A stretch of DNA of 64,000 bases. Source: Psychrobacter sp. LV10R520-6. Its GTDB lineage: Bacteria; Pseudomonadota; Gammaproteobacteria; Pseudomonadales; Moraxellaceae. Below the pieces are notes generated by a model. That model was not told the DNA's origin and did not search any database. It saw only the letters and a list, made by a program, of their open reading frames with translations. The stretch is taken from NCBI RefSeq assembly GCF_900182925.1, contig NZ_LT900024.1, positions 806,001 to 870,000 on the forward strand, read 5' to 3'. Position 1 is the stretch's first letter. Every line of letters begins with the position of its first letter. Positions 7,821 through 63,439 of this stretch are shown piece by piece. The position numbers and the translations under genes are program-made.

Positions 7821-9110
7821 GCAATTGAACGCTATTTTGGTATTAATGGTGAAAACACCACGATCAAAACAGAAATTCTTGCTGGTGCAACCACGTTTTT
7901 AACGATGGCCTACATTATTTTTGTGAACCCTAATGTATTGGCAGAAGCTGGCATGGACAAAGGCGCGGTATTTGTCGCCACTTGCTTAGCTGCTGCGGTG
8001 GGTTGTTTTATAATGGGTATCTACGCCCGCTTACCGGTCGCATTAGCGCCAGGCATGGGACTCAACGCTTTCTTTACTTATGGCGTGGTTCTGGGTATGG
8101 GCTATGCGTGGGAAACCGCACTGGGTGCTGTATTCCTATCGGGTTGTATCTTTGTACTTTTAAGCTTGTTTAAAATTCGTGAATGGATCATCAATGCCAT
8201 TCCAATCGCTCTTAAACAAGGGGTGGTCGCTGGTATCGGCGCGTTTTTAGCCTTTATTGCGCTGCAAAGCTCTGGCATTATCATCGGGCAAGACGCGACC
8301 TTGGTTGCTCTCGGCGATATGACAACTTTTGCACCCGTGATGGCTTCGTTAGGGTTCTTTGTCATCGTGGGCTTATCCTATAAAAAAATCCCTGGTGCGG
8401 TAACGATTGGTATTTTATTGGTCGCCTTAATCAGTTTATTAACAGGTAATACCCAGTTTACTGGGATTATGTCTACGCCGCCATCAATTGCGCCAACCTT
8501 AATGCAGCTTGATATTGCTGGCGCGTTTGACGTGGGCATGATCAGTGTCATTTTTGCCTTTCTGTTCGTAGATTTATTTGATACCGCAGGTACCTTGATG
8601 GCTACCACTAGTCAGGCCGGTCTGGTTGAAAAAAACGGTAACGTTCCTAACCTAGGTAAGGCGTTGTTAGCGGATTCAACAGCGACTGTTGCAGGCTCGT
8701 TGTTTGGTACGTCATCGACGACCAGTTATGTTGAAAGTGTCGCAGGGATCGCCTCAGGTGGCCGTACCGGACTGATGGCAGTAACGGTCGGCGTGCTGTT
8801 CTTACTCAGTATTTTCTTTGCGCCATTAGCCGGTATGATTCCAGCCTATGCCACTGCTGGTGCCATTTTTTATGTGGGCGTATTGATGCTGGCTACCCTA
8901 AAAGATATCAATTGGGGAGATGTAACGGATGCCGCACCTGTGGCAGTCGTGCTGTTGTTTACACCGCTAACATACTCTATCGCTGACGGTATTGCTCTTG
9001 GTTTTATTACCTTCACTGCGGTTAAATTATTGGCAGGTAAATTTTCTGAAATTACCCTTGCCGTTTGGGTATTAACGCTAATTTTACTGGCTAAAATTAT
9101 ATTTTTATAA
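7815..9110 (+). CDS. NCS2-family purine permease (AzgA/GhxP type)
   Basis: Integral membrane protein of 431 residues with about 12-14 hydrophobic segments. The N-terminus (ERYFGINGENTTIKTEILAG) and the motifs ALAPGMGLNAFF, LFVDLFDTAGTL and GTSSTTSYVES are typical of the AzgA-like branch of NCS2, which imports adenine, guanine or hypoxanthine by proton symport. The exact base cannot be decided. The ATG at 7815 has GGAAG eight bases upstream. An in-frame TTG at 7800 inside the repeat is less likely. The gene ends before a strong intrinsic terminator and so looks monocistronic. Confidence 0.9.
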   Translation: MNAIERYFGINGENTTIKTEILAGATTFLTMAYIIFVNPNVLAEAGMDKGAVFVATCLAAAVGCFIMGIYARLPVALAPGMGLNAFFTYGVVLGMGYAWETALGAVFLSGCIFVLLSLFKIREWIINAIPIALKQGVVAGIGAFLAFIALQSSGIIIGQDATLVALGDMTTFAPVMASLGFFVIVGLSYKKIPGAVTIGILLVALISLLTGNTQFTGIMSTPPSIAPTLMQLDIAGAFDVGMISVIFAFLFVDLFDTAGTLMATTSQAGLVEKNGNVPNLGKALLADSTATVAGSLFGTSSTTSYVESVAGIASGGRTGLMAVTVGVLFLLSIFFAPLAGMIPAYATAGAIFYVGVLMLATLKDINWGDVTDAAPVAVVLLFTPLTYSIADGIALGFITFTAVKLLAGKFSEITLAVWVLTLILLAKIIFL

Positions 9111-9160
9111 CTGAATCCAGATAACTCAATAACATTGCACTACTAATATTATTCAGATTT

Positions 9161-9199
9161 AAACCCTCCTTATTATTGAATAATAAGGAGGGTTTTTTT
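9161..9199 (+). terminator. intrinsic terminator of the purine permease gene
   Basis: A perfect 15-bp stem (9161-9175 with 9181-9195) around a five-base TTGAA loop is followed directly by a T run. It lies 50 bases after the permease stop codon. Confidence 0.93.
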
Positions 9200-9818
9200 A
9201 TTAAAAATGAGAGCAGTTTGTAAGGCTTTATTTAGCGTGATTCGTTGATAGAATTGTGCTTAATCGTCAATAGTAAACAAAAAACTATAACTTAAGCGTC
9301 ATTACTACGAATGTTCTGTTATCTGTTTGTTTTTAAAGAGTATATTTATTCGTGCAAATGGCCGATATCGTTAGTTTGAAAATTTTTTTCGTGATAACAT
9401 AGCGGAGTTAAGCGCATCACCTCAATCAACGCCGTAGAGGTTTTTCTTACAGTGAATTAGCATCATCCAAGATCACAAGTTGACGATATTAAGGCTATGC
9501 TTCGCCATACTTTAATAGTCGGATAATCTACTGGTCATACTCCTTTCACTACCAACAAGAAGAAGGCACTAATGCCGCTTAACTGTTCGTTGTTGCCTTT
9601 GCATTGTTAACGTAGTTCGTTGAACGCTCGAACGACATACTTAACCGTCTCCAGCATATGCTGGATTTGCTCGTTTTGTGATGGCGCCGTTCGGTTCTTT
9701 GTTGATAGTTTTTATAAATTAACGGCTTGTGTAAATAACTGGCTTTTATAAACCGCTTTCATAAAAAGTTCCTGCGCACCATTTATTATGGTTTTTAAAC
9801 GATAGTTGTGGAGTTGGT
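9200..9818 (+). promoter_or_regulatory. putA upstream region with palindromes
   Basis: A 0.6 kb region without a recognisable gene. It holds an imperfect hairpin at 9482-9520 (arms around TATTAAGGCTATG and CATACTTTAATA), a GTTC-GTT-GAAC element at 9615-9625, and a perfect 16-bp palindrome TCCAGCATATGCTGGA at 9650-9665. The PutA here lacks the ribbon-helix-helix domain of enterobacterial PutA, so an external regulator, for example a PutR/Lrp-type protein, would have to act. The palindrome is a candidate site. No binding evidence is available. Confidence 0.45.
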
Positions 9819-51088: not shown

Positions 51089-51300
51089 ATTTGAGACGAC
51101 TTGAATTGGAACGAGACTATAGCGAATCATACGAGCGTAAAGTATTTTAAGCCAATATATCAACTTTATATCAAAAGATAATCGATAGTCAGTAGAAGCT
51201 AATTATACTACTAAAATCTTAAATATGATCCAACCTAGAAGATAAAATTACAGGTTGTCCGCTATACTAGCCTTTGTGATCAACACAGGGGTTCACTGCT

Positions 51301-52170
51301 ATGAATACTTCCTCAAATGAACGCTATCCAAAATCCATCAATTCAATAGCGCAAGCTTGCGCCATAACTTTCCAAGGCAATGCCAGTAACCAGCGTCAGC
51401 AGGATGCTTTTTTCTTTTTGGATAACTGGTATCAAGAGACCTCAGGTATTACAGAAATTATATCTATAGAAATGCCATTTTGCTTTGCGGTATCGGATGG
51501 GGTAGCCAGCTCTAACTATTCACAGTATTGCTCAAAGGCAGTTGTAAAAGCAATCAAAGCTTTATGGGATGGCAATCAATCAACTACTCAACCCATCACT
51601 TCAAATCATATTCATCATTTAATCAGTCAAACCAAGCACTCGCATAAACGTTATGGCGCCGCAGCCACTCTCGCTATGATTACAGGAACATTCAATAGTG
51701 ATGAAACCATTAGCGTGAGAATAATGCATGTTGGTGACAGTCGTGTCTATAAACTGCTTAAAGGTGAGACGCAATGGCAGTGCTTGACTCGAGATGATAA
51801 CTTACTCAATGAACTAATTGATCAGCAGGCGCATGAGCAAGGGAGACAAGCTACGTTTGCAGATTATAACCGTGACGGTATGGCAGGTAGCTTGTACAGC
51901 ATCACGGAATGCTTTGCATTGACTGCTGATAATGATTTTCCGAGCAGCGAGGCGCCAGATAGTACCGCGCAGACCATTACTATTCAGTCAGGTGACTGTC
52001 TAGTGGTTTGCACTGATGGAATTCATGATTTGGTACCAAGTAAAGATTGGCAGCCTATCAATGCCGAGACTGATTTACAAGACTGGCTAAAAGCCCTTAA
52101 AACTCAGGTGTATCAATCTGATGGTCATGCTTATGATAATGGCACAGCGATTGTGGTTCGTTTTTATTGA
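51301..52170 (+). CDS. PP2C-type Ser/Thr protein phosphatase
   Basis: 289 residues of the PPM/PP2C fold. The metal-binding motifs are NQRQQDAFFF (motif 1), FAVSDGVAS (motif 2), AAATLAMI, VGDSRVYKL, LTRDDNLLNEL, CTDGIHDL and a final AYDNGTAIVVRF, so the active site appears complete. It would be a soluble cytoplasmic phosphatase. No Ser/Thr kinase is encoded nearby, which is unusual for a bacterial PP2C. It is the first intact gene of a same-strand run that continues with a WYL regulator and a nuclease. Confidence 0.88.
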   Translation: MNTSSNERYPKSINSIAQACAITFQGNASNQRQQDAFFFLDNWYQETSGITEIISIEMPFCFAVSDGVASSNYSQYCSKAVVKAIKALWDGNQSTTQPITSNHIHHLISQTKHSHKRYGAAATLAMITGTFNSDETISVRIMHVGDSRVYKLLKGETQWQCLTRDDNLLNELIDQQAHEQGRQATFADYNRDGMAGSLYSITECFALTADNDFPSSEAPDSTAQTITIQSGDCLVVCTDGIHDLVPSKDWQPINAETDLQDWLKALKTQVYQSDGHAYDNGTAIVVRFY

Positions 52171-53410: not shown

Positions 53411-54649
53411 ATGAGCGCAGTGAAGAGTTTAATAAATGAAGTCAGCCAAAAGCTTAGTGCCTTAGAGACTGCGCAAGCACTCTACAGTCGTCAGCTCTCA
53501 CCTGACTTTAATACTTTTGATTATATCAACACCGATGAATTGGGTCTTAGTCGTATTTTAGCGTCTCTGCTTGATCCTAAAGGCAGTCATGCACAGCAAG
53601 GAAGCTTTTTAAGTCTATTCGTTGAGTACTGCTTACCTACCGTATATAAAGAGAATAAATGGCAGGGTTTTCTTGATAATATAGATAAAACTGATGTTTT
53701 TCTTGAAGAAGTAACTGGAAAAAGCAATAGCCAACGACGTATGGATATTTACTTAAGGTGTCAGGTTGGTGATGAAAGCTATGGTATTTGTATTGAGAAT
53801 AAGCCTTACGCAGGAGATCAGTTTGAACAATTAAAAGATTACGCTATAGAGCTTGATAATAGAAAGCACAAGGCTTGGCATCTCATATACCTAAGCGAGT
53901 ATCAGGATGTACCAAGTGAGTATAGTATAAAACCTGATGACTTAAATACTTTGACTGATAACAATCAGTTTAGCGCTGTAAAGTTTAGCGATCTAATAGG
54001 TTGGCTCAAGGCCTGCCAAGTCGAATGCCAAAATCATAGCGTCAGTGAATTTATTGCACAATTAATTAAGTTTATTCAAAAGCAGTTCATGGGAATAGAA
54101 GATATGAATGAAGATAATGCAGTTTTAGATATTATTAAAAAAAATGCAGCTACCATCGATGCCAGTATCAAGGTGTCTAACACTGTAGATCGAATGAAGA
54201 AAGAGCTAATGGCAAAGCTGAAAATAGACTTATTAGCAAAATGTAAAAAAACTGATTATGAATTGGATATTAGTTACCTCGGTGATGGCAAAAGCTATGA
54301 GCGGATTAACCTTATAATCCCAGGCTACGATATCGGATATATTTGTTTTGAGTTTCAGAATAAGAATTTTGACAAACCATGTTTGGGTATTAAGTTTATC
54401 TCAGCAGAGGCAGTAAAAACCTCTCCATATACAGAAAAAATGAAATCGGTGCTAAATATAGCATTAACCGACAAAAATATTTGGAGTTCATCACTTTGGC
54501 CAGCTGGTTATTACTTTCAGCCTCAAGACTGGAAGGGCTGTAGCAAAGCATGGCTAATGATAAATGAAGGTACAATGGCAGATAAGATTTTGGATGAAAT
54601 GGACAAAATCTTTAGTTTGTTAAAAGATAACAACCTTCTTATTCAATAA
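53411..54649 (+). CDS. PD-(D/E)XK nuclease-like protein (PF14281 type)
   Basis: 412 residues. The N-terminal ELGLSRILASLLDPKGSHAQ is the typical opening of this group. The catalytic pattern is the Asp in RRMDIYLRC followed by IENKPYAGDQFEQLKDYA (the ExK motif is ENK). The second half is helical and then beta-rich (YELDISYLGDGKSY...), probably a recognition or regulatory domain. It is likely a DNA nuclease; related genes are common in defence islands. Two more relatives lie at 59.8-63.4 kb. It is between the WYL regulator and the LRR gene on the same strand. Confidence 0.82.
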   Translation: MSAVKSLINEVSQKLSALETAQALYSRQLSPDFNTFDYINTDELGLSRILASLLDPKGSHAQQGSFLSLFVEYCLPTVYKENKWQGFLDNIDKTDVFLEEVTGKSNSQRRMDIYLRCQVGDESYGICIENKPYAGDQFEQLKDYAIELDNRKHKAWHLIYLSEYQDVPSEYSIKPDDLNTLTDNNQFSAVKFSDLIGWLKACQVECQNHSVSEFIAQLIKFIQKQFMGIEDMNEDNAVLDIIKKNAATIDASIKVSNTVDRMKKELMAKLKIDLLAKCKKTDYELDISYLGDGKSYERINLIIPGYDIGYICFEFQNKNFDKPCLGIKFISAEAVKTSPYTEKMKSVLNIALTDKNIWSSSLWPAGYYFQPQDWKGCSKAWLMINEGTMADKILDEMDKIFSLLKDNNLLIQ

Positions 54650-54716: not shown

Positions 54717-57431
54717 ATGTCAGCTATCGATAATGTGGTTGATACTGCTACAACAGAGCCATGGATGACAGAGTTGTGGATGTGGGCCGATAAGTTTGAA
54801 ATTCCTGAAAAGGATTTGCCACGTAATAAGGATGATCTGTTAGCTATAATAAATTTAGATATTAGCTACAAAGGATTAACTGAGCTACCTGATAGTATCG
54901 GTCAGCTCAGTAATTTGGAATCGCTAAATATCAGTGGAAATCAGCTCATCACGCTACCAGAGTGCATAGTTAGGCTGAAGAAGCTGGTTTGTTTTATTAT
55001 TGATGAGGGTGGTTCTACTCATAGTGCTAATAAGCTAATTAATTTATCTACAGAAGTCACTGATTTTTTACGAGTCTTAGGTGAGGGTTGTAGAGGATGG
55101 AGTGACCCTATCAAATCCACTAAACCTAGCAATAGTATTCAAAAGTACATACAAAGACAGATAGTATCGAATAAAAGACAGATAATCATAACTGAAAACA
55201 TCGACAGGGAGGCACTACAGTCAGTCATCGACTGGGCAGAGTCATGTGACCTATCTGTTTATAGCATTCCAAGAGATATTGATGAACTGGCTAACAAGAC
55301 ATATATATCGATCGATTCGTACACGCAGCCAATACCAAAAGCTATTGGTTGTTTGACGCAACTAAGACACTTATCTTTATGTGAATCTATGTCATTAGGT
55401 GACAATAATTGCCAAGCTGATGATAGATTGCCAGACACTATTACCAATTTGGTGAATCTTGAAGAGCTCAGATTAACTTGTAACGATTCTGATTTTATAC
55501 TTACTAACTTAAATGAACTAAAAAGTCTAAAAACTTTGGAAATTAGGTTTCATGATGTGTCTACGGTTCCTAAGGTATTGGTAGAGATGAGTTGTGATAT
55601 CAAATTGCATCTATCTAGTAAGCAAGATAAGTTACCAGACAACTTGACGGATATCAGATGTCTAACCGAATTATTTATCGATGATGACCGCTTAACTGTA
55701 TTGCCCGATAGCATCGGAGCATTAACTCAGCTTCAGTCTTTAGGCCTAAGTTGCAACAGCCTTACTCATTTACCTGAGACAATCATAGGATTGGAGCAGT
55801 TAACTGAACTTACTGTTTGGAGCGAGAGTCTAACGGTGTTACCCGATGCCATTTCCAAGTTAACAAGCTTAAAAGAACTACAACTTGATTGTAGGCATTT
55901 AACCTACTTACCTAATTCATTAGAATGTCTAAAAAACTTGCACGAACTAACTATCAGAAGTGAACACTTAAGCAAATTACCCAACGATATCGCTGAGTTA
56001 ACCGGTTTAAAAGAACTGCACATGGCTTGTCCAAGTATGAAAACTTTGCCAAGTAGTATCGATAGACTGCAAAATATTAAGACTTTACTCATCAATTTTG
56101 ACAACGATGGTCATGTGGAATCATACCAAGGTAGCAGAGGTGAGGCATCGATATTATCAGGGCAGGTCACTACTTTACCTGAATCGATAGGGAACTTGCC
56201 AAATTTGGAAATATTAAAAATTCGTAGTACTTATCTAGATAAGTTACCCGATAATATCGGCAGTTTGAAGACCTTAAAAGAATTAACAATCACCAGTCAT
56301 CATTTAAAACAACTCCCACAGACTATTGGTGGTCTAACTAGCCTGACGGAGTTAACGCTAAACTGTGAGAGTCTTGAGTGTTTACCAGAGACATTGGGAC
56401 AGTTGATTCGGCTAGAGAAGCTCACTATCGCCAGTGATGAAATAAAGCAACTTCCAGAGACTATCGGTGATCTAACAAGCCTGACGGAGTTAACGCTAAA
56501 CTGTGAAGGTCTTGAGTGTTTACCAGAATCGTTGGGGCAGTTGATTCGCTTAGATGATCTCACTATCGCCAGTGATGAAATCAAGCAACTCCCAAAGACC
56601 ATCGGTGATTTAACCAGCCTGACGAAGTTAACTTTAAGCTGTGAAGGTATTGATTGTTTACCAGAGGCATTGGGAAAATTAGTTCGGTTAGAGTGGCTCA
56701 GTGTCACTAGCAATAAAACCAAGCAGTTCCCTAAGAGCTTGGTTAACCTAACCCATTTACGTTCACTGCATATTCCTGTTCAGTTAGTTGGTCTGTTACC
56801 GCCAATTGTCATCGAAAAGTATCGCAATCAAGAGCTCCGGCTGTGTGGGCTACCTTGGACTGCTTTATACACACCGTTGGCAGGAGATTATCGCTTATCT
56901 AATTACGGATTTTTCCTCGTTGATGATGGCTGGGATGAAAAAGCACTAATCGATCTAAAGTATAAAACAGGAGTGAGTCTCTTATTCGGTTTGCAAACGT
57001 CTGACAAAAGCATTGATGAATTCGATGTGATAGATGGCATTATTATTTGCCAGCCAGCAGAGGTAGAACAAGTAATAGGGGTGTTTAAATCCGTATTAGA
57101 AAGAACAGGCTTGGTTGGTATCAGTATTGATGATTTTGAGATGGGTTGTTTGTCTGGAAAATATGCCCGCTTCATACAGGCTAATGCAATGGGGGAGTTT
57201 GATTCAGACCGAGCAATCGAGCAAATTATAAGCCAAATCCCCAAAGGTCTTAGTATTAACTCTATGATGTTTGAAGTTAAAAGTAATTGTAGTATATCGC
57301 TTAAGAAATTTGAAGTTATAGTAACTGCGATTGAGAGTAGGGCTGTGGTTGACGCACCTGTGTTCTACGGTACAGAAATTATTGATAAGCCTAAATATTG
57401 CTGGATGGGAGCGATATATGTTGCTAGCTAG
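54717..57431 (+). CDS. leucine-rich repeat protein with an FtsZ-C-like C-terminal domain
   Basis: 904 residues. Residues about 45-95 and 200-690 are bacterial-type leucine-rich repeats of about 23 residues (consensus L-x-x-LP-x-x-I-x-x-L). An insert with no clear repeat lies at 100-200. From about residue 715 the sequence is a separate alpha/beta domain: FFLVDDGWDEKALIDLK, VIDGIIICQPAEVEQV, ISIDDFEM, FIQANAMGEFDSDRA, SISLKKFEVI, then a final strand near GAIYVAS. This domain is clearly shared with the protein at 58077. Its order of elements resembles the C-terminal domain of FtsZ (VDFADV, GedRA, LTLFEV, rVTVIAT). No GTPase tubulin signature (GGGTGTG) is present. There is no signal peptide, so it is cytoplasmic. 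The function is unknown. Confidence 0.75.
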   Translation: MSAIDNVVDTATTEPWMTELWMWADKFEIPEKDLPRNKDDLLAIINLDISYKGLTELPDSIGQLSNLESLNISGNQLITLPECIVRLKKLVCFIIDEGGSTHSANKLINLSTEVTDFLRVLGEGCRGWSDPIKSTKPSNSIQKYIQRQIVSNKRQIIITENIDREALQSVIDWAESCDLSVYSIPRDIDELANKTYISIDSYTQPIPKAIGCLTQLRHLSLCESMSLGDNNCQADDRLPDTITNLVNLEELRLTCNDSDFILTNLNELKSLKTLEIRFHDVSTVPKVLVEMSCDIKLHLSSKQDKLPDNLTDIRCLTELFIDDDRLTVLPDSIGALTQLQSLGLSCNSLTHLPETIIGLEQLTELTVWSESLTVLPDAISKLTSLKELQLDCRHLTYLPNSLECLKNLHELTIRSEHLSKLPNDIAELTGLKELHMACPSMKTLPSSIDRLQNIKTLLINFDNDGHVESYQGSRGEASILSGQVTTLPESIGNLPNLEILKIRSTYLDKLPDNIGSLKTLKELTITSHHLKQLPQTIGGLTSLTELTLNCESLECLPETLGQLIRLEKLTIASDEIKQLPETIGDLTSLTELTLNCEGLECLPESLGQLIRLDDLTIASDEIKQLPKTIGDLTSLTKLTLSCEGIDCLPEALGKLVRLEWLSVTSNKTKQFPKSLVNLTHLRSLHIPVQLVGLLPPIVIEKYRNQELRLCGLPWTALYTPLAGDYRLSNYGFFLVDDGWDEKALIDLKYKTGVSLLFGLQTSDKSIDEFDVIDGIIICQPAEVEQVIGVFKSVLERTGLVGISIDDFEMGCLSGKYARFIQANAMGEFDSDRAIEQIISQIPKGLSINSMMFEVKSNCSISLKKFEVIVTAIESRAVVDAPVFYGTEIIDKPKYCWMGAIYVAS
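56310..56723 (+). repeat. 138-bp tandem duplications inside the LRR gene
   Basis: Three copies of a 138-base unit (46 residues, two LRR modules) begin at about 56310, 56448 and 56586. Long identical blocks such as TAGCCTGACGGAGTTAACGC occur in the first two. The number of modules could change by recombination. Confidence 0.85.
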
Positions 57432-57525
57432 TTTTATTAAGCATAAATATTGCTTGAATGAGGTTGTAAGAACTGTTGGTAGATAATTATCACTTAAGAA
57501 GCAAAGAAGATATAAGGTGAGAGAT

Positions 57526-57975
57526 ATGAATAAAGCTTTGTTTAATGATCTTATTCATGCCCAAAATACGGTTTATCCACTGGTTATTGAGGAGCTGACT
57601 CAAGGTAAAAAGCGTACGCATTGGATGTGGTTCATTTTTCCTCAGATCAAAGGATTGGGACATAGTGTACGGGCTCGACGTTTTTCGTTACAGAGCCTGG
57701 AGCAAGCAAAAGAATATCTACAGCATGATGTGCTTGGAGTACGGTTAATAGCGTGTGCTGAATTACTGCTGTTGCATCCTGATAAAAGCGCTTTAGAGAT
57801 TTTTGGTACACCGGATAATCTGAAGCTGCAATCTTCTCTGACTTTATTTGCCTTTGCAGCTGGTAACGATTGTGTTTTTGAGCAACTTTTGTATCAGTTC
57901 TACGCAGGCAATTACGATATAAACACTATAAGAATGTTAATGCAATTAAGTGATAAACAATATCAGCAAATATAA
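57526..57975 (+). CDS. DUF1810 family protein
   Basis: 149 residues from the ATG at 57526; a GTG at 57517 is less likely. The family motifs HWMWFIFPQIKGLG, SLEQAKEYLQHDVLGVRL and TPDNLKLQSSLTLF are all present. DUF1810 proteins are small, cytoplasmic and of unknown role. It lies 94 bases after the LRR gene and 101 bases before the second FtsZ-C-like gene, on the same strand. Confidence 0.88.
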   Translation: MNKALFNDLIHAQNTVYPLVIEELTQGKKRTHWMWFIFPQIKGLGHSVRARRFSLQSLEQAKEYLQHDVLGVRLIACAELLLLHPDKSALEIFGTPDNLKLQSSLTLFAFAAGNDCVFEQLLYQFYAGNYDINTIRMLMQLSDKQYQQI

Positions 57976-58076
57976 CCGAACGAGACTTCAAAAGGTGATG
58001 TAATGTCGTCAACTCTCACCACAAATTTATACTTTTGAATACATTAAAAAACCACTAATTATCAGTGAGTATAACT

Positions 58077-58700
58077 ATGAAGTACCAGATTGATGACTCG
58101 TATATAGATGATATACCTAGTGCTGTTATGTATCGACGGACCATGGAGCATTGCCCTAAGTCTACTATTGGTTGTTTTATAACGAGCGATGATTGGAATG
58201 AGCAGACTCTACTAGAGCTAAAAGAGGGATCAGAGGCTTGGTTTTTAGTGGGCTTACAAACAGATAATATAGATTTTGAGCGCTTAGATATTATAGAGGG
58301 CGTTATTAGATGTCAGCCTGATGAAGTAAACGATGTCATTAAACTGCTTAATGTAAACTCTGCAAGTACTATTATCGGTATAGATGTTGTAGATATTAAA
58401 AGTATGTTTGAGTGTGATAATTTATTTCAATTCATCCAAGCAAGTGCCACAGGTGAATCTGACTCAGATTTAGTAAAGATAGCTACACAGCAGTTAGTTA
58501 GTCAACTTATAAAAGCACGTCATACTAAAGGGTTGTTTATTGGAATGGAGAGTGTCGAAAGTCCCTCACTAGAGGTATTTTCTTATGTATCAGAAGCTGT
58601 TGAAGCCTTATTGTCTGATGATGTGTTTATATATTACAGTTCAAGTATTACTGATGAGCCTGATTGTTTTCGTTTAAAGGCGATATATGCTTCGGCATAG
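58077..58700 (+). CDS. stand-alone paralogue of the LRR protein's C-terminal domain (FtsZ-C-like)
   Basis: 207 residues from the ATG at 58077. It aligns with residues about 715-904 of the LRR protein throughout: SDDWNEQTLLELK, IIEGVIRCQPDEVNDV, VDIKSMFE, FIQASATGESDSD, and a final strand near KAIYASA. The same resemblance to the FtsZ C-terminal domain applies. It has no LRR, GTPase or signal segment. The two copies probably arose by duplication and may bind each other or a common partner; this is an inference. Confidence 0.75.
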   Translation: MKYQIDDSYIDDIPSAVMYRRTMEHCPKSTIGCFITSDDWNEQTLLELKEGSEAWFLVGLQTDNIDFERLDIIEGVIRCQPDEVNDVIKLLNVNSASTIIGIDVVDIKSMFECDNLFQFIQASATGESDSDLVKIATQQLVSQLIKARHTKGLFIGMESVESPSLEVFSYVSEAVEALLSDDVFIYYSSSITDEPDCFRLKAIYASA

Positions 58701-59652: not shown

Positions 59653-60946
59653 GAGGTAATTCCTTTATATGATTCAACCGTTCTCATTGATAGGCGCAAA
59701 GCCTAAGCCTATTAATCCACCTTAACCAGCTTTGCGATTGGTTATCATGCTTCGAGATAGGTCGGATATAGGCGATGCTTAAAGTCCATACAACTAAAAT
59801 ATTTATTCAATCAATGTTGGACGATAATTTAGCTCTAAGTTGTTTAGGTGACCCATTAATTCAACAATATTGGCTGATAGTTCTTCTAAATCAAAATTTT
59901 TAAATGTAAAAGATATACCCCAGTAAGTGTTATTTATTTCATACCAAGGTTCACCTTTAAACTCTAGCAATGCATCGCCAATGAAGTTTTCGAATTGCTC
60001 TGTCAACTCATCAGACTGCTTGGCAATATGCAAATTAATCTTATGCGATATGTCATTATCACTAGCCTTCATCCATAGAACGATATCAGAGCCTGTTGTC
60101 CAGTTGAGGTTAGTGAATTTAATGACAGGTTCATAGTAATACCACTTACCGTGTTTTACTTTACATTCAAAATTTTGAAGATCACTGGCATTTAAGTCTG
60201 ATGAGATTTTTGCTCCAATCTTAGGCATCAGATTGTTGTAGATATAATCATTCAATTGGGCAAATTCATTCAAGTTTTCAGTTAAAAAAGAAATTTCATT
60301 TGCATTGATATCAGTCATCGTGTTCAAGCCTTTTAAATGTAATAGAAACTCTCTGGCAAACAAAGTCCATTTGTTATAAGGGTTGTCAAACATGGTTTTT
60401 GACAAGCGTTTTTCAATATGTTCAACCAGTTCGTTGTATGAGATGCCATGCCAGCCATCTGCTGCCAGATCTGCACTGACGTTACCATTGAGGCAGAGCA
60501 CCATTTTAACGAGTGTCTTTGAGGTTGAGCCTTTAGAGCCATTATTGATACGCTCATTACCAAAGGCTGTGTATTCATCAAAGGGGTTGTTTTGATGATG
60601 GTGGATTTTACATTCAATCACTATTACTTCAGTGTCAGTCTCTACGAGTAAGTCAATACGCTTGCCATTTTGCGTAGATACTTCCGTCTCTACACTCTCA
60701 AAAGTACCTAAGTCGGATAGTATGCCCTTTTTAGCGATAGCAGACTCTAGACCTCTAAAGAAACTGTTACCCAAACCGTGGTGGTTGGCTGAATCTAAGA
60801 AGAAGCTGAGCAGTTCAGTCGTTGGGTTTTCAAAATGCCCTCGTGTGCCAACATCAAATAGATTTAAATCCTCATCCGTAAAGTCTAGCGCTCTAAACTT
60901 ATCTATAAGGGCTTTAAACCTATCAAGGTCATAGTGTAGTGGTCAA

Positions 60947-61762
60947 CTAATTTAGGACACCTGACAAGAGGTTTTGGTTAAAGTAGCGTCTCTCTTTTTC
61001 AGCTGGTGACAGATGATCATTGAAGCTGTGCGGTCTCACGGTTTGATAGTAGCCCCAAATATAATCACTAATGGCGCTCGATGCTTCAGCGATATCCTCG
61101 TAACCACCCTTTGGCATCCACTCGGTTTTGAAGCTTCTAAAGAACCTTTCAGTAGGTGCGTTATCCCAACAGTTACCTTTTCGGCTCATACTCTGCGTCA
61201 TACTCTTACAGTCAGCTATGGCTTCAGCGAATTTCTCACTGGTGTAGTGCGTGCCTTGGTCTGAATGGAACAGTATGTTGCTCGGTTTAAATCTGGTGTG
61301 ATACGCCATCTGTAGTGCTGAGCTTGTCAATATGCTATCAGGAGAGTCTGATATGCTAAAGCCTACGATACGACGCGCAAACAGATCTAGAACCACAGCC
61401 AAATAGCACCAGCCCCCTTTGATACGAATATAAGTCACGTCCCCCGTCCATACTTGGTTCGGTGCTGCTGGGCTAAAGTTGCGATCTAAGATATTGTCAT
61501 GGGTTCTATGTATTTGATCACAGTGCTTGTACTTGTGTGTCTTTAACTGGCAACTGATGAGCCCCATTTGCTTCATAAGCTTAGCAGTTAGGTAACGTGT
61601 CAGCTTAATACCATGCTCATTAGCCAATATAGCGATAACAGTGCGAGCCCCTGCTGATTGCTTTGAGTCGTTGAATATTTGACGTATCAAAGCCTTTAGT
61701 TTGACACGTTCTACATCAATGGGCTTAGTCTGTATACCATAGTAGTAGCTGCTTCTCACCAC
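60947..61762 (-). CDS. IS3-family transposase OrfB (DDE integrase domain)
   Basis: 271 residues from an internal ATG; the real product is probably the OrfAB fusion made by -1 frameshifting. The catalytic residues are in WTGDVTYIRI (Asp), FHSDQGTHYTS (Asp) and NAPTERFF (Glu). HTH_21-like residues precede the catalytic domain. It inserts and excises the element. Confidence 0.92.
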   Translation of the reverse strand: MVRSSYYYGIQTKPIDVERVKLKALIRQIFNDSKQSAGARTVIAILANEHGIKLTRYLTAKLMKQMGLISCQLKTHKYKHCDQIHRTHDNILDRNFSPAAPNQVWTGDVTYIRIKGGWCYLAVVLDLFARRIVGFSISDSPDSILTSSALQMAYHTRFKPSNILFHSDQGTHYTSEKFAEAIADCKSMTQSMSRKGNCWDNAPTERFFRSFKTEWMPKGGYEDIAEASSAISDYIWGYYQTVRPHSFNDHLSPAEKERRYFNQNLLSGVLN

Positions 61763-61824
61763 GCCAAATAGGTCACATAACTTACGCTTGCTTAATCGTT
61801 TGTCCTGCTCTGCAAGCTTGCTTA

Positions 61825-62136
61825 TCAGTAGTAGCCTTTTAGACTGTCCGATGCCAACAGAGCTGAAGCCTTTTTTAAAATATCACGCTCCATTCTTAGA
61901 CGCTTATTCTCTTTGCGCAGCTGTTGCAACTCTCGCTGCTCATCTGTTAAAGCCAAGCCTTGGGTTGGGGCAACGCCTCGCTGCTCTAGTCGATACTTTC
62001 GTACCCAGTTGTCTAAAGTGGAGATGCCAATCCCTAGCGACTCTGCCACTTCTGCAACCTTGCGCTTGTGATCAATCACTAAGCTGATGGCTTCTAATTT
62101 GAATTCTCGGGTGTATTCTCTGCGTTTGGTAGTCAT
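61825..62136 (-). CDS. IS3-family transposase OrfA
   Basis: 103 residues. A helix-turn-helix (REFKLEAISLVID ... VAEVAESLGIGISTLDNWV) is followed by a leucine-zipper-like segment (ELQQLRKENKRLRMERDILK). It binds the element's ends. The frame ends shortly after the slippery A6G, consistent with frameshifting into OrfB. Confidence 0.92.
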   Translation of the reverse strand: MTTKRREYTREFKLEAISLVIDHKRKVAEVAESLGIGISTLDNWVRKYRLEQRGVAPTQGLALTDEQRELQQLRKENKRLRMERDILKKASALLASDSLKGYY

Positions 62137-62341: not shown

Positions 62342-63439
62342 CTATAACTGGCTACGCACTTCAGTTTCAAACTCGTTTATTAAAGTCAGTTTATGTATTA
62401 AGCCTTCAAGCGCTATCGTTTTGTCAAATTTTTCAAACGGTGCTTTATAACCTAAGGTAGTATCATTTTTACCTGTCTTCCATTGTTTAGTGCTATATCT
62501 CTTTAGGTGTTGATTGGCTTTATTTGCCAAGTCTTGGTGCCCTATATCAGTCACATAGTAGTTTATACAAAATGACTCGCCTGCACGTGCGTCTAAATAT
62601 AGAGCGACAAATGAATTGGACTGCCATTTTTTGAAAGCAAAACGTAGAGCAGGGTACCTATTCCAAGTGCTTAATTTAATATCTATTTTTTCATTGGGGA
62701 AAATATTACTTAATTCTTGCAAGAGCTCTGAATGAAAAGCTTTAATGGTTTTGTCTTTTAATCGCTCAGCTTGATGTATTTCTCTTAAGTTTTCCAAAAT
62801 GTAATCTGTAGTCTCAGGAGAAATGGTTGAACCAGACATAATACCTTCCAAATGTAATATAAATTCACGAAGCAAGACTAACCATTTATTGAGTGGCTGA
62901 TTAATAAAGGCCTGTGCTAATTTTTCTCTGACGCTATCCAGTAATGCAGGGTAGCTTAAACCGAGCCAGCCTGTAGGTGCATTACCCTTAGGCGATAGCA
63001 CCACAAAAATAGGGTGTTTGTCTTGGTATTGTTCTTCTCTATGAATATGCTGTTGATAGCTTTTAAACGGGTTGTTTAGTTTATGAAAAACCTTATTTTC
63101 GATTACCATGACCCAGTCATTTCCTTCTAACAGGATATCGATATATTTGTTATCCTCAGTAAAGACTTCGCGCTCAGGCTCAGTGATGATAGAGAAATCG
63201 CTGAAGTCAAAATCGGCTGACTCTGGATTAGAAACAGTGAGAGCATCAAATAATGCTTCCGTCATCAAGTTACCTAAGCCATGATCACCTTCACTGTCAC
63301 AGAAAAAGGCTAGCACATCAGAGGTTGGGTTTTCGTAGTAACCACGGCTACCAATGCCGAATATCGTCAGCTCAGGTGTTTCTGGGGTGGGTAAGCTCTT
63401 GATATGCTCTATTAATTGTTTTAACTGAATAATATTCAT
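62342..63439 (-). CDS. PD-(D/E)XK nuclease-like protein, intact paralogue
   Basis: 365 residues. The opening IFGIGSRGYYENPTSDVLAF and DHGLGNLMTEALFDAL match the IS-split gene next to it. The catalytic pattern is the Asp in KYIDILLEGNDWVMVIENKV (ENK as ExK). The helical C-terminal half includes NKWLVLLREFILHLEGIM, also shared. It probably encodes a DNA nuclease; the role is unknown. Together with its disrupted neighbour and the gene at 53411, it makes three members of one superfamily within 10 kb. Confidence 0.82.
   Translation of the reverse strand: MNIIQLKQLIEHIKSLPTPETPELTIFGIGSRGYYENPTSDVLAFFCDSEGDHGLGNLMTEALFDALTVSNPESADFDFSDFSIITEPEREVFTEDNKYIDILLEGNDWVMVIENKVFHKLNNPFKSYQQHIHREEQYQDKHPIFVVLSPKGNAPTGWLGLSYPALLDSVREKLAQAFINQPLNKWLVLLREFILHLEGIMSGSTISPETTDYILENLREIHQAERLKDKTIKAFHSELLQELSNIFPNEKIDIKLSTWNRYPALRFAFKKWQSNSFVALYLDARAGESFCINYYVTDIGHQDLANKANQHLKRYSTKQWKTGKNDTTLGYKAPFEKFDKTIALEGLIHKLTLINEFETEVRSQL

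Follow-up and report, generated by a model that had tools for sequence, protein, structure and literature searches.

Degenerate FtsZ modules in a WYL-associated accessory cassette of Psychrobacter, possible decoys for inhibitors of cell division

The genome of Psychrobacter sp. LV10R520-6 (Moraxellaceae) encodes, within a 64,000-nucleotide stretch of its 3.2-Mb single contig (NZ_LT900024.1, positions 806,001 to 870,000, or G000:C1:806001-870000; hereafter the window), a 904-residue leucine-rich repeat (LRR) protein and, shortly downstream, a free protein that is related to the C-terminal end of the former. Our analysis leaves almost no doubt that both modules are degenerate copies of FtsZ, which have lost its GTP-binding motifs and have kept its fold, its C-terminal domain and, in most members of the family, the aspartates of its T7 (synergy) loop. 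We refer to such modules as pseudo-FtsZ, and to the types represented in the window by the LRR-fused and the free module as A and B, respectively. Both belong to an accessory cassette that is very probably controlled by a WYL-domain regulator through an operator of its own, and they may serve as decoys for phage proteins that attack FtsZ.

Results

Two modules derived from FtsZ

Both open reading frames (ORFs) lie where the original prediction, made from the DNA alone, had placed them (Table 1), B being 207 residues long if read from the ATG at 58077 (the ORF list starts it at a GTG, 58065). That prediction aligned the last ~190 residues of the LRR protein with the whole of B, and in a single BLASTP comparison residues 695-904 indeed align with B from end to end (30% identity, E = 3e-30). 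The sequence blocks quoted as shared are present, although the turn given as GE-x-x-RA actually reads GEFDSDRA. The proposed resemblance to the FtsZ C-terminal domain has turned out to be true homology, evident in sequence, profiles and fold; the modelled fold, nonetheless, corresponds to a shrunken whole FtsZ rather than to the C-terminal domain alone.

Against curated families the modules score far under the cut-offs. B matches NCBIfam ftsZ (TIGR00065) at profile positions 208-310, which belong to the C-terminal domain, with an E of 0.0062 (15.9 bits for a cut-off of 295.2), and the C-terminus of the LRR protein matches Pfam FtsZ_C (PF12327) with an E of 0.2 (12.4 bits for a cut-off of 27). 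Used alone as a query, B recovers frames of the size of FtsZ (405-468 aa) in 24 of the 105 genomes of the genus, its own included, at E-values of 2.3e-6 to 7.3e-4 and over B residues ~95-194; five of these 24 frames were confirmed as FtsZ by Pfam FtsZ_C. Profiles built exclusively from pseudo-FtsZ rows match the FtsZ of the host itself at 3.8e-10 (A2) and 8.1e-13 (A3). Two of the checks proposed with the original prediction, by profile and by structure, lead to FtsZ: the C half matches it profile to profile (P 4.8e-10), and with a low-confidence model of B the 50 Foldseek matches listed are all FtsZ. In the fold alignment, model residues 11-203 span FtsZ residues 11-317, and module residues 1-95, too, correspond to the FtsZ fold. 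For the N half, the assignment to FtsZ is by fold and hand alignment only, the tracing of strands S4-S5-S6 in the sequence being unproven, and hhalign found no match to FtsZ for the first 98 residues or for residues 24-98 (P 0.28 to 0.77). A PDB sequence search with the C-terminus of the LRR protein returned alpha-repeat proteins and other short matches, and no FtsZ.

By sequence homology and fold, the modules are thus degenerate members of the FtsZ/tubulin superfamily. They differ from canonical FtsZ (TIGR00065; PF12327) in their size, of ~205 residues compared to ~310 for the FtsZ core, and in the loss of the tubulin signature and of the T7 asparagine. Both window proteins stop at strand S10, and the C-terminal partner-binding peptide of FtsZ is not present. 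Two uncharacterised proteins of the phage Siphoviridae sp. ctMaD24 have predicted structures that match the pseudo-FtsZ model as well (BFVD A0A8S5LVA2, E 4.8e-5; A0A8S5LUX6, E 9.8e-3).

Loss of the GTP face and apparent retention of the bottom face

The fate of the functional motifs was followed over 46 pseudo-FtsZ rows, a chosen set that includes 14 database proteins found as relatives of B. The tubulin signature GGGTGTG, whose absence from both window proteins had been correctly predicted, occurs in none of the 46 rows and in all 60 members of an FtsZ set that was chosen by that motif. No row carries the canonical T7 motif NxDxxD, yet two of its three positions are kept in most of them: the asparagine is lost throughout (0/46), with glycine in its place in 34 rows, while the first aspartate is found in 40 and the second in 43. 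In FtsZ filaments, the T7 aspartates hold the catalytic water against the GTP of the neighbouring subunit, and the T7 asparagine contacts that neighbour. Since both this asparagine and the GTP face are gone, pseudo-FtsZ would be unable to join an FtsZ filament. Substitution at the position lost in pseudo-FtsZ (N208L) suppresses the assembly of SaFtsZ, and D210N and D213N do likewise (PMC8936486).

Columns of the FtsZ bottom face were defined after PMC8936486, in which T7, H8, H10 and S9 make up the T7-side longitudinal contacts, and identities were weighted for redundancy. The 43 Psychrobacter rows (effective number 15) show an identity to Psychrobacter FtsZ of 0.304 on the bottom face and of 0.158 over the remaining C-half columns (column permutation, p 0.0008; 8 of 106 circular shifts, which keep neighbouring columns together, are as high). 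With H8 excluded, a choice made after seeing the data, the values are 0.344 and 0.150, and one of 106 circular shifts is as high. The three rows from another genus of the family (g8) behave similarly with respect to their own FtsZ (0.381 and 0.164; 3 of 111 circular shifts as high). When FtsZ is exchanged between the two genera, the bottom face falls to 0.222 and 0.263, and the rest stands at 0.143 and 0.147; the preference for the FtsZ of the own genus is largely confined to the bottom face. In FtsZ itself, conservation is lower on the bottom face (0.47) than elsewhere (0.61), and hence the pattern does not stem from the conservation of FtsZ in general.

By mean C-half identity, 40 of the 43 Psychrobacter rows are nearest to Psychrobacter FtsZ (the exceptions being L053, L054 and L080), and the three rows of the g8 genome G298 are all nearest to g8 FtsZ. 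A tree, computed with long-branch warnings, places the 24 pseudo-FtsZ rows used on one side of a single branch (99/95; 98% of 200 bootstrap trees). An independent origin of the G298 copies from their own FtsZ was not rejected (approximately unbiased test, p 0.073), and neither was a sister relationship between pseudo-FtsZ and Psychrobacter FtsZ (p 0.446). Two histories would produce the bottom-face pattern: one origin followed by co-evolution, or separate origins under a constraint that acts on that face.

A cassette with its own operator

Together with the window, 40 fetched neighbourhoods yield 41 pseudo-FtsZ clusters, some of them cut by contig ends and five genomes being represented twice. 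On the same strand and within 5 kb, a WYL gene is found in 29 clusters and a PP2C gene in 26, with both present in 26; DUF1810 occurs in 20 of the 41, a PDDEXK nuclease in 12, a second PDDEXK type in five and, within 5 kb on either strand, a GmrSD/DUF262-like gene in 11. The usual gene order is PP2C, WYL, PDDEXK (where present), A, DUF1810 and B, and the minimal cassette (PP2C, WYL and pseudo-FtsZ) is seen in L080 and L092. The pairing of an LRR protein with a free copy, described in the original prediction as an unfamiliar arrangement, is real, but a DUF1810 gene lies between the two, the cassette is larger and the LRR is an optional add-on, because several A-type proteins have none: A occurs either bare (224-234 aa) or fused to LRRs in proteins of 329 to 904 aa.

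This variation bears on the idea of a toxin-antidote or autoinhibited pair, in which A, LRR-fused or bare, would be the effector, B would hold it inactive through pseudo-FtsZ contact and the phosphatase or nuclease would be accessory. That two diverged paralogues (30% identity) have stayed next to each other, in most cases separated by DUF1810, agrees with this idea. On the other hand, eight loci that are not at a contig end hold a single pseudo-FtsZ (L036, L044, L045, L050, L052, L080, L091 and L092), and in L045 the LRR is joined to a B-type domain instead, which makes such a pair quite improbable.

Two unusual forms deserve separate mention. In L042 (10191-12437, minus strand), PDDEXK, a short LRR array and pseudo-FtsZ A share a single 748-aa open frame, which could reflect a genuine fusion of nuclease and sensor or else an artefact from sequencing or a frameshift, in a genome of 85% completeness. 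L053, L078 and L079 carry a lone pseudo-FtsZ subtype (240-260 aa) near an 861-869-aa gene, identified by Pfam as an FtsX-like permease in L053; assuming that the three neighbouring genes are the same, this subtype perhaps occupies a fixed locus outside the cassette.

Upstream of the PP2C gene, the near-palindrome ACCTAGAA..AGGT is present in 20 of 21 loci and is followed by TATACT in 19, with L073 as the miss; the search expression was composed once the alignment of these loci had been inspected. With a stricter pattern, the 3.2-Mb genome yields two sites, each of them at a pseudo-FtsZ locus, and none when the pattern is read backwards. The second site (C1:1196355-1196381) lies 3.8 kb from a pseudo-FtsZ remnant (C1:1200195-1200548, L075), which is an A-type C half, 87% identical in DNA to the window copy across 347 bp, and adjoins a Mutator-family transposase; judging from these sequences, site and remnant are probably what is left of a second cassette. 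The genome contains two Pfam WYL matches in total. The combination of WYL and WCX domains with an inverted repeat at the promoter is that of WYL defence regulators, and we infer that the WYL protein binds the cassette operator.

When compared to the PADLOC (2023) families at an E of 0.01, the LRR-pseudo-FtsZ, DUF1810, free pseudo-FtsZ and PP2C proteins match none; the WYL and PD-(D/E)XK proteins do, the nuclease corresponding to the PADLOC candidate PDC-S26. Judged by titles and the opening lines of abstracts, the literature retrieved with the term DUF1810 does not deal with the function of DUF1810.

Genomic distribution

Pseudo-FtsZ was found in 47 of the 105 Psychrobacter genomes and in two g8 genomes (hand count at best E < 1e-20, 348 genomes of the family searched), and in none of 368 further genomes sampled from the class (1e-6). 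In a search of the order (293 genomes), the matches outside the genus were FtsZ-sized frames (381 to 466 aa) that aligned with the C half alone, from query position 87 onwards. Among the protein relatives listed, those with an organism name belong to Psychrobacter, and so do the named contigs. One copy is borne by a plasmid (pP62BP1; NC_019274.1, L174, 7540-8606), where it follows a HicA-family toxin gene and a small ORF and has a restriction-modification pair nearby. No phage record matched, nor did any viral contig when these were scanned for near relatives of a single B protein. GmrSD-type proteins, an HsdR, SIR2 and a DUF3427 helicase are among the sampled cassette neighbours. The patchy occurrence, the plasmid copy and these restriction-type neighbours indicate that the cassette is accessory, not housekeeping.

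The same three features speak against an adaptor or scaffold unrelated to phages, by which pseudo-FtsZ would contribute to normal control of the cell cycle, either recruiting FtsZ partners or bringing the phosphatase or nuclease to the septum. We deem this reading improbable, even if the g8 copies are in keeping with it. In genome G298, three pseudo-FtsZ copies are accompanied by genes for WYL and PP2C proteins (L073). Of these copies, two end in GNPIREYLKRQQHNKKS and GNSIKEYLRRQW, compared to TGNSIQDYLRRQQNR in G298 FtsZ, and have thus kept the FtsZ C-terminal peptide; outside the family, 40 of 41 FtsZ proteins end in a DIPAFLRRQ-like peptide. In the third (7823-9715, minus strand; 630 aa), pseudo-FtsZ is joined to the motor and gamma domains of FtsK (Pfam 4.8e-33 and 1.2e-23, respectively). 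An alignment with FtsK of P. aeruginosa (2iut, 3.6e-72) shows the P-loop of this fusion changed from AGTTGSGKS to AGRSKETIT, and L073 therefore holds dead forms of two division proteins, in a locus that comprises WYL, PP2C, SIR2 and GmrSD genes.

In one of the two g8 genomes, a broken pseudo-FtsZ lies beside a transposase-like frame (L074). Other copies are also truncated or interrupted by stops, such as the C1:1200195 remnant, as would be expected if pseudo-FtsZ genes were functionless, decaying FtsZ duplicates. This is nevertheless highly improbable for the family, given that its frames are mostly open, that some positions are near-invariant across the 46 rows and that gene order and operator are conserved across species.

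A second degenerate FtsZ-like type (307-314 aa, with a T7-like GYDFND and no tubulin signature by eye) was observed at L142 (1933-2865, minus strand) and L144-L148. First traced from two frames of 325 to 329 aa, it is full length in five of the 105 Psychrobacter genomes and in fragments in a sixth, and it is related by profile to pseudo-FtsZ (P 9.5e-7) and not detectably to FtsZ directly.

Discussion

The original prediction ventured that these proteins might sense or block FtsZ in phage defence. Such a role appears plausible, and we lean towards sensing over blocking. Specifically, we tentatively favour the possibility that pseudo-FtsZ acts as a decoy for phage proteins that attack FtsZ. SulA and MciZ bind the synergy-loop face of FtsZ. 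Pseudo-FtsZ would display this bottom, synergy-loop face of the host FtsZ, where inhibitors of division from phages and other mobile elements would dock; a phage inhibitor resembling T7 Gp0.4 would bind the decoy, the LRR array of the fused forms would detect the inhibitor-decoy complex or link it to a partner, the WYL regulator would induce the cassette from its own operator upon infection, and the PP2C phosphatase or the nuclease would carry the response. We find this the best fit because it brings together dead copies of a phage target, apparent retention of the attacked face, the ability to be fused to LRRs, a self-regulated accessory cassette and the proximity of restriction-type genes. 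Gp0.4 has been placed on the synergy-loop surface of FtsZ by a model and mutants and likened to SulA and MciZ, and its complex with FtsZ activates CapRel-Ebc (PMC13423816). Both systems would follow a defence logic centred on phage attack against that face, but CapRel uses the real FtsZ of the cell, whereas here dead FtsZ copies lie beside putative defence genes. No CapRel match was reported for the cassette proteins in Pfam, NCBIfam and PADLOC scans.

Much of this evidence would also suit a regulated antagonist, a cap or poison subunit of FtsZ. The WYL protein would sense infection or DNA damage and induce pseudo-FtsZ, whose bottom face would dock on the GTP face of the host FtsZ without offering a top face, and division would halt. 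The retention of T7 aspartates and bottom face, the loss of the GTP motifs and the C-terminal peptide of two g8 copies are compatible with this mechanism, and DriD and didA in Caulobacter set a precedent for the control of a cell-cycle inhibitor by a WYL regulator (PMC12340889). We nevertheless consider it somewhat less likely than the decoy. The T7 asparagine is lost in all 46 rows, and its substitution suppresses SaFtsZ assembly (PMC8936486); just two operator sites exist in the genome, unlike a damage regulon; and the LRR fusion and its variable array are left unexplained. Moreover, phage T7 is at a disadvantage without gene 0.4 (PMC13423816), and therefore blocking division would not obviously hurt the phage.

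Several points weigh against the decoy. We know of no binding partner, phage inhibitor or phenotype for pseudo-FtsZ. An FtsZ antagonist is also expected to keep the bottom face, and the conserved aspartates could equally mean contact with FtsZ, because D210N and D213N suppress assembly too; in the window LRR copy, moreover, the first T7 aspartate is lost (GISIDD). H8, an element of the bottom face, is hardly retained (0.09), circular shifts reach the Psychrobacter value for the complete face in 8 of 106 cases, and against one unrelated gammaproteobacterial FtsZ the gap is small (0.199 on the bottom face and 0.145 elsewhere, p 0.08). Taken column by column, 7 of the 12 columns informative on genus-tracking point in the expected direction. 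No same-strand WYL gene lies within 5 kb in 12 of the 41 clusters, of which one has a WYL gene on the opposite strand and some are cut by contig ends. Finally, SulA and two Kil peptides did not activate CapRel-Ebc (PMC13423816), and hence its sensing of attacks on FtsZ is not general.

BrxR has an inverted repeat at its promoter, as does the cassette. A WYL-WCX protein beside defence genes is likewise reminiscent of BrxR and CapW (PMC9122601, PMC9122588), although the genes under the WYL protein are here PP2C, pseudo-FtsZ and DUF1810, and not BREX or CBASS. Divergent members of the FtsZ superfamily, FtsZl1 and FtsZl2, have been described before, and FtsZl1 also resides in operons of its own (Makarova & Koonin 2010, PMC2875224). 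Those proteins are recognised by a GGGTG(S/T)G loop that is gone in pseudo-FtsZ, and the FtsZl1 operons mostly carry a vWA protein (PMC2875224); the pseudo-FtsZ operon has a different make-up. No vWA protein was reported among the cassette neighbours, of which a sample was scanned with Pfam and no search was directed at vWA.

In plants, the integrated decoys of nucleotide-binding leucine-rich repeat receptors (NLRs) consist of an LRR protein to which a dead version of a pathogen target is joined. By analogy, the LRR-fused pseudo-FtsZ resembles these decoys in layout; Pfam and NCBIfam scans reported no NTPase domain in the LRR protein of the window. A broader and more speculative proposal is that the Moraxellaceae have assembled an immune cassette from dead versions of proteins of their own divisome (FtsZ, joined in one genus by FtsK), which might track the host FtsZ on its inhibitor-binding face and whose LRR forms would parallel the integrated decoys of plants. 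A literature search, with subscription papers mostly outside its coverage, found no paper on FtsZ decoys, on degenerate FtsZ in defence or on the pseudo-FtsZ cassette.

Pseudo-FtsZ constitutes a defined and testable family of naturally dead FtsZ in a regulated, accessory and defence-associated cassette. If its members are decoys, bacteria would possess genetically encoded decoys of host targets and would guard their divisome by mimicry, and pseudo-FtsZ could be used as bait for phage FtsZ inhibitors; if they are antagonists, they would represent natural FtsZ blockers of a type other than SulA or MciZ. Either way, they provide a natural separation of the inhibitor-binding face of FtsZ from its GTPase.

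Other features of the window

Table 1. Cassette features in the window (coordinates are window positions).
Feature	Coordinates	Strand	Evidence and remarks
Operator/promoter of the cassette	51232..51268	+	near-palindrome AACCT..(N)..AGGTT, then TATACT -10-like box; 32 bp 5' of the PP2C start codon
PP2C-type Ser/Thr phosphatase, 289 aa, first cassette gene	51301..52170	+	Pfam PP2C_2 2.5e-9
WYL/WCX-domain transcription regulator, 362 aa	52271..53359	+	Pfam WYL 4.9e-8, WCX 8e-8; PADLOC WYL 4.2e-19
PD-(D/E)XK (PDDEXK_4) nuclease-like protein, 412 aa, optional member	53411..54649	+	Pfam PDDEXK_4 6.8e-27; PADLOC PDC-S26 9.6e-46
LRR - pseudo-FtsZ fusion (A type), 904 aa	54717..57431	+	ORF; Pfam LRR_14 7.8e-67, LRR_8 5.8e-32
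LRR array, ~residues 46-690 of the fusion	54852..56786	+	Pfam LRR matches
Pseudo-FtsZ domain A, residues 701-904	56817..57428	+	
T7 (synergy) loop equivalent of A, GLVGISIDDF	57108..57137	+	alignment with own FtsZ; NxDxxD to GxSxxD
DUF1810 protein, 149 aa	57526..57975	+	Pfam 3.9e-48
Free pseudo-FtsZ (B type), 207 aa	58077..58700	+	BLASTP 3e-30 to A; NCBIfam ftsZ 0.0062
T7 (synergy) loop equivalent of B, GIDVVD	58377..58394	+	alignment; both catalytic-Asp positions kept, Asn lost

The PP2C protein also matches the NCBIfam Stp1 family (1.1e-16), below the model cut-off. NCBIfam matches of the LRR protein to type III effectors were rejected, all being far below cut-off and presumably caused by the LRRs, and a weak Pfam match to DUF6990 (0.15) was disregarded. 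Tandem Repeats Finder detects a 138-bp unit inside the LRR array (56305-56700, 2.9 copies, 83% matches), which, together with the widely varying array length among congeners, suggests a recent expansion of repeats. Downstream of the cassette, the window encodes two further PDDEXK_4 proteins (59803-60774 and 62342-63439, both on the minus strand), between which lies a two-ORF pair (60947-62136, minus strand) that is transposase-like by eye.

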